Part shown: positions 1,759-5,612 of the stretch, piece after piece
How positions within the stretch are numbered: the stretch's first letter is position 1
Layout of the letters: each line of letters opens with the position of its first letter
Source of the DNA: an uncultured Acholeplasmataceae bacterium
GTDB taxonomy: Bacteria > Bacillota_I > Bacilli_A > Acholeplasmatales > Acholeplasmataceae
Length of the DNA: 47,432 nt
NCBI GenBank assembly: GCA_927441705.1
Contig: CAKMKH010000034.1
Location: 1-47,432, forward strand
Reading direction: 5' to 3'
Notes under the pieces: model-generated
The model's input: only the letters and a program-made list of their open reading frames with translations
The model's database searches: none
What the model was told of the DNA's origin: nothing
Position numbers and translations under genes: made by a program

Positions 1759-4000
1759 GGAATGTTCTTGATATAACTTCTCTTTTTTGTTCATTAGTTA
1801 GATTAGAAAAATTAACTGCATATCCTGATACTCTAATTGTTAAATTAGGATATTTATCAGGATGATCGTAAGCATCTTGTAGTTTCTCTCTATTAAAAAT
1901 ATTTACATTTAAATGATATCCATTACTTCTAAAATAGCCATCAAGTATATGCACTAAGTTTTCAACTTTTATATCACCTTCATAAGTAAAACCATCAGCA
2001 GTTTCTAGAGATTTCCCTAATGCTTGTGGAATAATTGAAAATGTATTAGAAATACCATCTTGACAACTCTCACATGGAATCTTAGAAACACTTAATAGTG
2101 ATTTTAGTGCACCTGATTTATCTCTACCATGCATTGGGTTTGCGCCTGGAGCAAACGCTTCACCTTTTCTTCTTCCATCAGGGGTATTGCCTGTTTTTTT
2201 ACCATAAACAACATTAGAAGTTATTGTTAAAATGCTCATTGTTGGTACTGATTCTCTATATGTATATTGTTTTCTTATTTTTGTCATAAAACTATTAACC
2301 ACTTCAACAGCGATTTGGTCTACACGATCATCATTGTTTCCATAGCAAGGGAAATCACCAGTAATTTCAAAATCAGAGATAATGCCTCTGTCATCATATA
2401 TTGGTTTAACTTTTGCATATTTTATGGCAGATAGTGAATCTGCGACCACTGACAACCCTGCGATGCCAGTTGCAAAATTTCTTATAACTTCTGCATCATG
2501 AAGTGCCATTTGTAATCTTTCATATGCATATTTATCATGCATGTAATGTATGGCATTTAATGCACTCACATAAGTTTTTGCTAACCATTCAAGCATAATA
2601 TCAAAATTTTTTAACACATGTTCATAGTTTAATATATCATCTTTAATAGGTTCAAATGCAGTAGATACTTGATCACCAGTGATTTCATCTTTACCGCCAT
2701 TTAGTGCATACAATAATGCTTTAGCCAAGTTTGCACGTGCACCGAAAAATTGCATTTCTTTTCCTAGTGTCATAGGCGATACACAGCAAGCTATACCATA
2801 ATCATCACCATGAGCTGGTCTCATTTGTTCATCATTTTCATATTGAATCGAACTTGTGTCTATACTAATTTTTCCACAAAATTTTTTAAAGTTTTCTGGC
2901 AAATCTTCATGCCATAAAACCGTTAAATTTGGTTCAGCAGAAGTACCTAAATTATATAGTGTTTGTAGATATCTAAATGTATTTTTAGTTACCCATGATC
3001 TACCATCAACATTCATACCTGCTAAGCTTTCTGTTACCCATGTTGGATCTCCTGTGAATAAATCATTATACTCAGGTGTTCTAGCAAATCTAACCATTCT
3101 TAATTTCATAATAAAATGATCAATCAATTCTTGTGCTTCGATTTCTGTTAAAACACCTTCTTTGATATCTCTTTCGATATAAATATCTAAGAAAGTTGCT
3201 GTTCTACCTAAACTCATAGCTGCACCATTTTGTTCTTTTACAGCAGCTAAATAAGCAAAATATGTCCATTGAATAGCTTCTATAGCATTTGCTGCAGGTT
3301 TTGATAAATCAAATCCATATAAAGCACCTAATTCTTTTAGCATACTCAAAGCTTTTATTTGTTCTTGAATCTCTTCTCTTAAACGAATATTTCTTTCGTT
3401 CATCGGATAAGCATAATATGTTTTTTCTTTCTTCTTTTCATCAATTAAGCGATCTATGCCATATAACGCAACACGTCTATAATCACCTATAATTCTTCCT
3501 CTTCCATATCCATCAGGAAGTCCAGTGATAATTCCGGATCTTCTAGCTTTTCTAATATCAGCATTATAAACATCAAACACACCTTGATTATGCGTTTTTC
3601 TATACTCTGAAAATATGTGTTTTGTATCCTCGTCCACATGATATCCAAAAGCTTCAGCAGCTTTAACAGCAACATTAATGCCACCATATGGGTGAAAAGC
3701 TCTTTTAAATGGTTTATCAGTTTGTAATCCAACTATTTTCTCTAAATCCTTATTAATATATCCTGGGCCATGTGATGTAATTGAAGCAACCACTTTCGTG
3801 TCTAATTCAATAACGCCACCCTTTTCTTTTTCTTCTTTTAAAAAATTGAAAAACATTTCGTTTAATTTTAAACTACTTTGTGTAGGTCCAGCTAAAAATG
3901 ATGAATCACCTAAGTATTCTTTATAATTCAAAGACATAAAGTCTCTAACATCAATTTGTTCTGTCCATTTACCTTCGTTAAAATTTCTCCAAGCAGACAT
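1742..4000 (-). CDS. pflB: Formate C-acetyltransferase (pyruvate formate-lyase)
   Basis: Converts pyruvate and CoA to acetyl-CoA and formate in the cytoplasm, by a glycyl-radical mechanism under anoxic conditions. The 752-residue protein has the catalytic cysteine pair at residues 405-406 in GIACCVSPM. The C-terminal glycyl-radical loop RVSGYAVNF has its glycine at residue 726. Length and spacing match E. coli PflB (about 760 residues). The start is ATG 4000, directly after an AGGAGG site. pflA overlaps its end. Upstream lie two CcpA-box-like sequences 21 bp apart. In this window it would handle pyruvate from the glutamate branch as well as from sugars, and produces formate that connects to fhs. 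Confidence 0.98.
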
Positions 4001-4050
4001 AAAAAAACCTCCTATATTTTATTTAGTTTCAATCGAGTTTTTTCACTTAT

Positions 4051-4056
4051 ATTATA
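4051..4056 (-). promoter_or_regulatory. Candidate -10 element of pflB promoter
   Basis: The minus strand reads TATAAT here, about 50 bp upstream of the pflB start. No good -35 hexamer stands 16-18 bp upstream, which would fit a promoter that needs an activator. The two cre-like boxes lie just upstream, at about -36 to -72. Confidence 0.35.
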
Positions 4057-4079
4057 TATTAATAATATGTGATTAAATC

Positions 4080-4116
4080 TTGAAAACGTTTTATAAAAAA
4101 TTGAAAACGTTTTCCA
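4080..4116. promoter_or_regulatory. Two tandem CcpA (cre)-like boxes
   Basis: TTGAAAACGTTTTATA (4080-4095) and TTGAAAACGTTTTCCA (4101-4116) share their first 13 bases and are spaced 21 bp apart, two helical turns. Both resemble the Gram-positive catabolite-response element WTGNAARCGNWWWCAW; the second has one mismatch. They lie between the divergent pflB and hflX promoters. Their distance upstream of the pflB -10 resembles sites where CcpA activates overflow genes. No ccpA gene is in this window. Confidence 0.55.
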
Positions 4117-4135
4117 CATATTGTTTACCCTATCA

Positions 4136-4164
4136 TTGTCTTTCCAATGACAAAAGGTTATAAT
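4136..4164 (+). promoter_or_regulatory. Strong sigma-A type promoter for leader ORF and hflX
   Basis: TTGTCT at 4136-4141, a 17-bp spacer, and a perfect TATAAT at 4159-4164. The predicted start near 4171 leaves a roughly 147-base 5' leader before hflX. That leader holds a short ORF and several stems. Confidence 0.7.
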
Positions 4165-4206
4165 AAACTCGTATGCAAGTAGCATATATATTAAGGAGGT
4201 ATAGCC

Positions 4207-4239
4207 ATGAATATTAATAAACTGAGATTAACTCAATAA
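4207..4239 (+). CDS. 10-codon leader peptide upstream of hflX
   Basis: ATG 4207 follows a near-perfect TAAGGAGGT site at 4192-4200 with 6-base spacing. It encodes MNINKLRLTQ and stops at TAA 4237-4239. Such a strong start for so short a frame, 78 bp ahead of hflX, suggests a regulatory leader peptide rather than a working protein. Its coding bases take part in a long-range stem with 4278-4289, just before hflX. Ribosome stalling or drug binding on the leader could therefore change folding. Attenuator leaders with small ORFs are known for the Listeria hflX-type resistance gene; the parallel here is inferred. I see no clear terminator U-run in the leader, so control may be translational. Confidence 0.6.
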   Translation: MNINKLRLTQ

Positions 4240-4289
4240 CTGTTATAGCTCCATACGCTTATTTAAGAAATAACCGAATTGAGCAGTTT
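4219..4289 (+). promoter_or_regulatory. Putative attenuator stem in hflX leader
   Basis: AAACTG (4219-4224) and CTCAAT (4232-4237) are both complementary to the continuous stretch ATTGAGCAGTTT (4278-4289). This gives a 12-bp stem with a 7-base bulge. Inside it are alternative small stems: ATAACTGTTAT around 4236-4246 and TTATTT-AAG-AAATAA around 4259-4274. The 5' arms lie within the leader ORF, so a ribosome there would block the long stem. Confidence 0.5.
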
Positions 4290-4317
4290 GTCTAAGAATC
4301 ATAAAAGAGGTAATTAT

Positions 4318-5568
4318 ATGGATAAAGCAATACTCGTCGGTTTAAATGTTAATCAAGATGAAGAAAGTGTTAGAAAATCAATTGACGAACTTGAACACTT
4401 AGCACTTGCTCTAGATATAAAAACAAAAGATAAGGTCATACAAAATGCTAAACAAATCACACCTAAATATTACGTAGGTAGTGGTAAAGTACAAGAAATT
4501 AAAAAAATGATTGAAGTCTTGAATATCGATATCGTTATATTTGACGATACCCTTTCTCCAGCACAATTAAAGCACCTAGAAAAAGAATTGGATGTTCAAG
4601 TTATCGATCGAAGTTTTCTTATTATGTCAATATTTGCATTAAGAGCTCAAACTAAAGAAGCAAAACTCGAAGTATCACTCGCTCAAAAAAATTATATGCT
4701 TCCGCGATTAATAGGGCTTGGTAACTCACTATCAAGACAAGGTGGTGGTAGTTATAATGCAAAAGGTCCAGGTGAAACAAAACTTGAGTTAGATCGAAGA
4801 AAACTATTAAGAGAAATCTATCAAATTAGACAAGACTTAGAAAAGATAAAACAAGAAAAGGAAGTCTCAAGAAAACAACGTTCTAAAAACCATATTCCAG
4901 TAGTAGCTCTTGTTGGATATACAAATGCTGGCAAATCATCATTGATGAATAGTCTTAGCGAAGCATTAAACCATCCTTCAGAACAAGTATTGGAAAAAGA
5001 TATGTTGTTTGCAACATTATCAACCAAAGCAAAAAAATTACAAAGAGACAATATGCCTCCTTTCATTCTTATCGATACTGTTGGTTTTATTAATAAACTC
5101 CCACATGAGCTTGCTAGATCTTTCGAGTCAACATTAAGCGATGTTATACACGCAGACTTACTCATACATGTTGTCGATGGTGCATTTTTCGATCGTATGC
5201 AAATAGAGGTTACAAAATCAGTTTTAGCATCAATACATGCAGATAAAATTGAAAGAATTTTAGTTTTAACTAAAAAAGAGATAGCTACTTATCAACCGTC
5301 TATTGATGAAGATTATTTGTTTGTTTCAAATCGAACAAAAGAAAATATTGATCAGCTGATTGATACTATTTATGGACATATTTATCAGGAAAACAGGATT
5401 CACATCTTGCATATTCCATTTGATGAAGGTCATATTTTCTCTAATTTAAAAGAAAACAATACAATTTTAGAAACCAAATATGAAGCTGATGGCACTTATG
5501 TAAAAACAATTTTAACACCTGAGCAAGAAAAACAATTTAAAAAATATTTATTGAATAACAAAAAATAA
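4318..5568 (+). CDS. hflX: GTPase HflX (ribosome-splitting/rescue factor)
   Basis: HflX binds the ribosome and uses GTP to split stalled 70S particles. Some homologues give macrolide/lincosamide resistance. The 416-residue protein has the HflX N-terminal domain (YYVGSGKVQEI, then DRSFLIMSIFALRAQTKEAK), the conserved SRQGGGSYNAKGPGETKLE, and a GTPase domain. P-loop GYTNAGKS is at about residues 200-207 and DTVGF is the switch motif. I chose ATG 4318, 7 bases after AGAGG. A TTG at 4279 would add 13 unconserved residues, and its codons lie in the leader stem. It stands alone between a strong promoter and a bidirectional terminator. Its leader ORF suggests induction by translation stress. Confidence 0.93.
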   Translation: MDKAILVGLNVNQDEESVRKSIDELEHLALALDIKTKDKVIQNAKQITPKYYVGSGKVQEIKKMIEVLNIDIVIFDDTLSPAQLKHLEKELDVQVIDRSFLIMSIFALRAQTKEAKLEVSLAQKNYMLPRLIGLGNSLSRQGGGSYNAKGPGETKLELDRRKLLREIYQIRQDLEKIKQEKEVSRKQRSKNHIPVVALVGYTNAGKSSLMNSLSEALNHPSEQVLEKDMLFATLSTKAKKLQRDNMPPFILIDTVGFINKLPHELARSFESTLSDVIHADLLIHVVDGAFFDRMQIEVTKSVLASIHADKIERILVLTKKEIATYQPSIDEDYLFVSNRTKENIDQLIDTIYGHIYQENRIHILHIPFDEGHIFSNLKENNTILETKYEADGTYVKTILTPEQEKQFKKYLLNNKK

Positions 5569-5573
5569 ACCGA

Positions 5574-5612
5574 AAAAAATCACAAACTTAAATTACAAGC
5601 TTGTGATTTTTT
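5574..5612. terminator. Bidirectional terminator between hflX and dusB
   Basis: AAAAAATCACAA (5574-5585) pairs with TTGTGATTTTTT (5601-5612) around a 15-base loop. U-runs form on both strands. It serves hflX and the convergent dusB, whose stop codon overlaps the right arm. Confidence 0.8.

Follow-up and report, generated by a model that had tools for sequence, protein, structure and literature searches.

The window, the whole 47,432-nt stretch of DNA analyzed here, belongs to a genome of 1.76 Mb (105 contigs, 97% complete), apparently that of a free-living, Acholeplasma-like lineage. The genome contains one copy of hflX, as does each of four congeners, and the encoded protein had as its top PDB match 8a57, the GTPase HflX (E = 1e-81). 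The pflB and pflA genes are divergent from hflX, and dusB is convergent with it. The features of the locus are as follows; S3, S4 and S5 are pairing arms described further below.

4136–4164, + strand: hflX promoter, TTGTCT-17-TATAAT
4171–4187, + strand: P1 hairpin, GTATGC-AAGTA-GCATAT
4193–4200, + strand: Shine–Dalgarno (SD) sequence of the leader frame, AAGGAGGT
4207–4239, + strand: leader frame, MNINKLRLTQ and stop codon
4219–4227, + strand: Lys-Leu-Arg (KLR; +X+ motif), frame codons 5–7
4248–4257, + strand: S3, first arm of the ON hairpin (GCTC...CG), just past the frame stop
4272–4284, + strand: S4, AACCGAATTGAGC, pairing with S3 (ON) or with hflX codons 6–9 (OFF)
4306–4311, + strand: hflX SD, AGAGGT, enclosed by the OFF stem
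4318–5568, + strand: hflX, with its ATG at 4318
4333–4342, + strand: S5, CTCGTCGGTT, hflX codons 6–9, partner of S4
5574–5612, − strand: terminator-like hairpin between hflX and dusB

The hairpin at 5574–5612 is U-rich on both sides and is therefore probably shared, serving both hflX and dusB. The interval separating the divergent promoters of pflB and hflX contains, at 4081–4115, two TGAAAACGTTTT-type palindromes resembling LacI/CcpA cre sites, which are also present in G001 and G003; they probably mediate catabolite control of pflB. In the small genomes (0.3–0.9 Mb) of genus g8, hflX was not found, bar one weak match that is likely another GTPase, and the gene seems to have been lost with genome reduction. 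The whole genome of G011, from the same genus, contains 13 copies of GGAGGAAGAAAATGAATGATCTAAATTTCG or a one-base variant of it, which suggests a repeated gene or mobile element.

A short frame upstream of hflX

To compare leaders, hflX upstream regions were collected from relatives, the closest of which formed a set of five congeneric species (G000–G004), namely the window species and four congeners. The earlier note had described a strong promoter driving a leader of about 147 bases, and this held: the promoter is kept in position in the four congeners, where a TATAAT and a TTG-type −35 were read from the sequence at the matching place (n = 4), and the distance from the presumed +1 to the hflX ATG is ≈147–149 nt. 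A consensus promoter by itself is not above chance (1 found vs 2.7 in shuffles). The P1 hairpin, which lies downstream of +1 and ahead of the frame's SD, was formed in 5/5 congeneric species, with two pairs changed on both sides. The near-ideal ribosome-binding site and 10-codon frame of the same note were likewise found as described: the SD, invariant in the five species, lies 6 nt before the ATG at 4207, and the codons read ATG AAT ATT AAT AAA CTG AGA TTA ACT CAA TAA.

In the four congeners, the promoter and the invariant SD are followed by frames of 10 or 12 codons (MNISKLRITLSI, MNISKLRKILSI, MNINLILSNL and MNINPLGLNI). All 18 leaders examined from genus g3 have an SD-preceded frame, of 11–16 codons, and two genomes of g11 have a 10-codon frame before hflX. 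The search of relatives for a conserved short ORF, which had been proposed as a check, thus turned up an SD-preceded frame of 10–16 codons in three genera (g1, g3 and g11). Deeper relatives mostly have a promoter directly before hflX, without such a frame. Possible leader frames without KLR were seen in genera g5 and g12 (MINKTVSNI in L013 of G008 and MNNLDQKIYQI in L020 of G028). Very short possible frames were also seen in f3, another family of the order (MKILALIQ in L077 of G051, MKILY in L082 of G047 and MSI in L086 of G049), which suggests that leader frames at hflX may extend beyond this family.

The KLR encoded by the window frame was missed in the earlier note. (Arg/Lys)-X-(Arg/Lys) is the main ketolide arrest motif and is frequent for macrolides; in ErmDL the P site of the arrested ribosome holds Leu7 and the A site Arg8, and among substitutions of its Arg6, Lys alone retains the effect (PMC8298421). 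By analogy, arrest on the window frame would occur with Leu6 and Arg7, respectively, in those two sites, and the motif strengthens the drug-sensing reading of the leader. A near-start KLR is found before hflX in 10 genomes (G000, G001, G003, G006, G019, G030, G071, G078, G081 and G082); half of the leaders lack it, among them those of two congeners and roughly half of those from g3. Scanning with the pattern GGAGG-(5-9)-ATG-(3-9)-AAR-YTN-MGN gave 11 matches in the five congeneric genomes (≈10 Mb; 1–3 per genome), 3 of them at hflX, and ≈100 matches in 88 family genomes, 10 of them just before hflX. By these counts, the leader frame is above chance.

On the HflX tree, where the possible frames of g5 and g12 (L013 and L020) were not counted as leaders, the KLR label requires about four changes, so the peptide appears to change while the frame persists; the non-KLR peptides are Ser/Thr-rich or of other composition, e.g., MSTSNTTSDNR. 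These changes, together with the many relatives whose frames lack KLR, would fit a stall sensor that is not tuned to macrolides, in which any slowing on the frame, by other drugs, heat or amino-acid shortage, opens hflX. However, KLR occurs at hflX far in excess of the genome-wide rate of such frames, and we consider an untuned sensor unlikely.

Competing pairings and the start of hflX

Two mutually exclusive pairings, S3:S4 and S4:S5, were both present in the folds of 5/5 congeneric leaders, the five close species that make up the structure sample. In the first (ON), GCUC, located 1–8 nt past the frame stop, pairs with GAGC, along with middle pairs, a CG:CG and AU-rich top pairs. In the second (OFF), AACCG...YGAG of the distal ON-hairpin arm is paired instead to CUCG and CGGUU within hflX codons 6–9, enclosing the hflX SD and AUG, with an energy of −11.6 kcal/mol in the window and −10.2 to −15.4 kcal/mol in the other congeners. 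The ON hairpin was matched by 1–11 of 500 shuffles per species and the OFF duplex by 12–36 of 500; the energies summed over the five species, which are related, were matched by 0/500. In all five species the distance from the frame ATG to S3 is 40–42 nt, whether the frame has 10 or 12 codons. The overall folding energy of the leader was not unusual (z = −0.13), and in Rfam the window had no match at gathering thresholds and the leader only chance-level matches.

Because a whole-leader MAFFT alignment misaligned the helices, the strands of each fold were aligned by hand before pairs were counted, a procedure that leans towards structure. Counted in this way, the middle pairs of the ON hairpin were changed on both sides between species. 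S5 never varies among the five species, so S4:S5 is almost without covariation. A long-range S1:S3 pairing, considered as a general helper of the OFF state, was rejected: the strands are complementary only in G000, G001 and G003, and the pairing is absent in G002 and G004.

The earlier note had placed the decisive stem between codons of the frame and 4278–4289. In the window this complementarity is exact, joining 4219–4224 with 4284–4289 and 4232–4237 with 4278–4283 (12 bp, −9.4 kcal/mol), but it is not conserved, as the four congeners offer no better pairing of the frame with S4 than −2.1 to −5.9 kcal/mol. The covarying, competing stems anticipated for relatives survive in part and in altered form: P1 and the middle ON pairs have double changes, and S3:S4 versus S4:S5 takes the place of the frame-based stem as the conserved switch. 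The broader proposal of a stall- or antibiotic-sensing leader withstood the note's refuting condition on conservation and gained from the conserved frame, the competing and partly covarying stems and KLR, but lost that particular stem.

The invariance of S5 extends along the start of hflX. Codons 2–14 had 0/106 synonymous differences across the five species, compared with 1355/3307 (41%) in the rest of the gene, and the longest identical run covers codons 4–10 (GCA ATA CTC GTC GGT TTA AAT). The corresponding codons vary in g3, a genus with a different OFF arm. This combination of a frozen start in five species and variation in g3 supports a constraint on the hflX start as RNA, beyond that of the protein alone. 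For comparison, the starts of dusB (27/114, 24%) and hslO (31/107, 29%) in these genomes were more variable.

A simpler explanation would be that there is no regulation, the frame and the slow hflX start reflecting ordinary initiation and the stems being coincidences of AT-rich sequence. The ordinary total folding energy agrees with this, as does the fact that slow evolution is common at gene starts, with 5/40 synonymous differences (12.5%) at the start of pflB and 0/35 at that of pflA, which overlaps the pflB end. However, the SD and frame are kept in three genera, both P1 and the ON hairpin show changes on both sides, the spacing between frame and S3 is fixed, and the hflX start evolves far more slowly than those of dusB and hslO. 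We find such a coincidence hardly credible.

No terminator-like site was found between the promoter and hflX when 3950–4400 was searched, and no U-run follows either stem, ON or OFF, in any of the five species; control thus appears to operate at the translational level. This bears on the nearest functional precedent, the leader of Listeria hflXr, a drug sensor of 14 codons with RLR that acts on transcription (PMC6310831). In a transcription attenuator of that type, a stalled ribosome would prevent an intrinsic terminator before hflX from forming. The window leader resembles that of Listeria monocytogenes rli80-hflXr (lmo0762) in its hflX-type gene, short +X+ frame and mutually exclusive RNA structures (PMC6310831), but it has KLR instead of RLR, and 10 codons instead of 14. 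Furthermore, the Listeria target is a second, resistance copy of hflX, whereas the window target is the only hflX. With no terminator and no second hflX, the window leader is not of the Listeria rli80 type, and we regard transcriptional attenuation by this route as very unlikely.

A probable stalling switch and its relatives

We consider it most likely, with a probability of roughly 0.7, that the leader is a ribosome-stalling translational attenuator of hflX, for which we infer translation of the frame, drug arrest and switching. According to this model, the promoter would produce a leader with the well-initiated frame MNINKLRLTQ. During normal translation, the ribosome would reach the stop codon and cover S3; alternatively, upstream RNA (the 5' CGUAUG or the SD region of the frame) would mask S3 by pairing with it. 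With S3 masked, S4 would be free to pair with hflX codons 6–9, enclosing the SD and AUG in the OFF state. A drug in the exit tunnel would instead stall the ribosome at Leu6 and Arg7, with its leading edge near +32, leaving S3 (from +42) free. S3:S4 would then form first, releasing S5 and allowing HflX to be made (ON), and the HflX so produced would split stalled ribosomes.

In a partition-function model of the window leader, OFF had a probability of 0.98 for the naked RNA and of 0.99 once a ribosome occupied the stop codon; ON reached 0.69 with a ribosome, of assumed footprint, stalled at codon 6. The hflX SD was mostly unpaired within the modeled OFF loop, which counts against the attenuator model, as do the leaders lacking KLR, the near absence of covariation in S4:S5 and the equally invariant pflA start. 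Before S5 is transcribed, a stalled ribosome gave ON at 0.96–1.00 in 5/5 species, so timing would favor ON under a stall. The equilibrium model fits the four congeners poorly: a stalled ribosome does not keep G001 and G003 out of OFF, and the naked RNA of G002 and G004 favors ON. These misfits imply a requirement for kinetic help or for masking by a ribosome. In the tlrB leader, the switch is timed by RNA polymerase pausing (PMC6851288).

That leader, of B. subtilis tlrB (yxjB), shares with the window a short +X+ frame, a structure sequestering the SD and a dependence on how polymerase and ribosome are timed, but it has RYR at the C terminus of its peptide, a terminator, a NusG-dependent pause, a tylosin response and another target gene (PMC6851288). 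With the erm-type attenuators (ErmCL, ErmDL and others), the window shares a drug-arrest motif in the frame, three competing arms and masking of the target start; the erm target is a methyltransferase, whereas in the window it is hflX and the masking partner lies inside the target coding sequence. A well-initiated frame, an arrest motif and mutually exclusive start-masking structures, as in erm leaders, were all found; thermodynamic switching fits the window species, but not all of its relatives. The computationally defined uORFC-6-1 motif, with 51 representatives mainly in Bacillales, has RLR before hflX (PMC8632094). It is similar in having a short frame before hflX and an RNA structure downstream of the frame start; compared by description, the window has the related KLR where uORFC-6-1 carries its Arg-Leu-Arg-like motif. 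That motif belongs mainly to another bacterial order, and its authors suggest an effect on transcription (PMC8632094). Stall-sensing hflX leaders are thus already known from Listeria and other Bacillales, and the window leader would be another variant, acting on a sole hflX. Since RLR leaders precede hflX in those bacteria, the independence suggested in the earlier note is at most a possibility, beside common descent.

Elsewhere in the family, a hairpin arm with GATCC follows the frame and is complementary to hflX AUGGAUC in 14/18 g3 leaders and 2/2 g11 leaders. As an anti-start arm it was rejected for g3, where single leaders were hardly above shuffles; it was clear only in g11. In the two g11 leaders (L007 and L010), the frames MSNQLFNLNH and MSNQLYNLFD are followed by a CCATGG hairpin, the second arm of which, GATCCATGG, is a perfect complement of the hflX start ATGGATC: the layout is the same, with other sequence. 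In L048 (G069), GGTACC, complementary to the hflX SD region AGAGGTACC, replaces the GATCC of the sister genome G080 (L047), and codon 2 of hflX has a silent change to GAC; the target of the arm may have moved from the start codon to the SD in this genome.

We tentatively propose, as a possibility well short of an even chance, that the sensor is modular: the family might keep an RNA switch at hflX and repeatedly exchange the peptide, tuning HflX to different ribosome-targeting drugs, with the anti-start arm rebuilt in each genus (against codons 6–9 in g1 and codons 1–3 in g3 and g11). The ≈25 leaders with differing peptides and one target gene would form a panel for finding which drug is sensed by each nascent peptide. 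If the stalling model is correct, drug-sensing hflX leaders reach from Listeria and other Bacillales into the Acholeplasma lineage, and it is the cell's only hflX, rather than an extra resistance copy, that is under such control. This suggests that inducible ribosome splitting would be an intrinsic defense of free-living Mollicutes.
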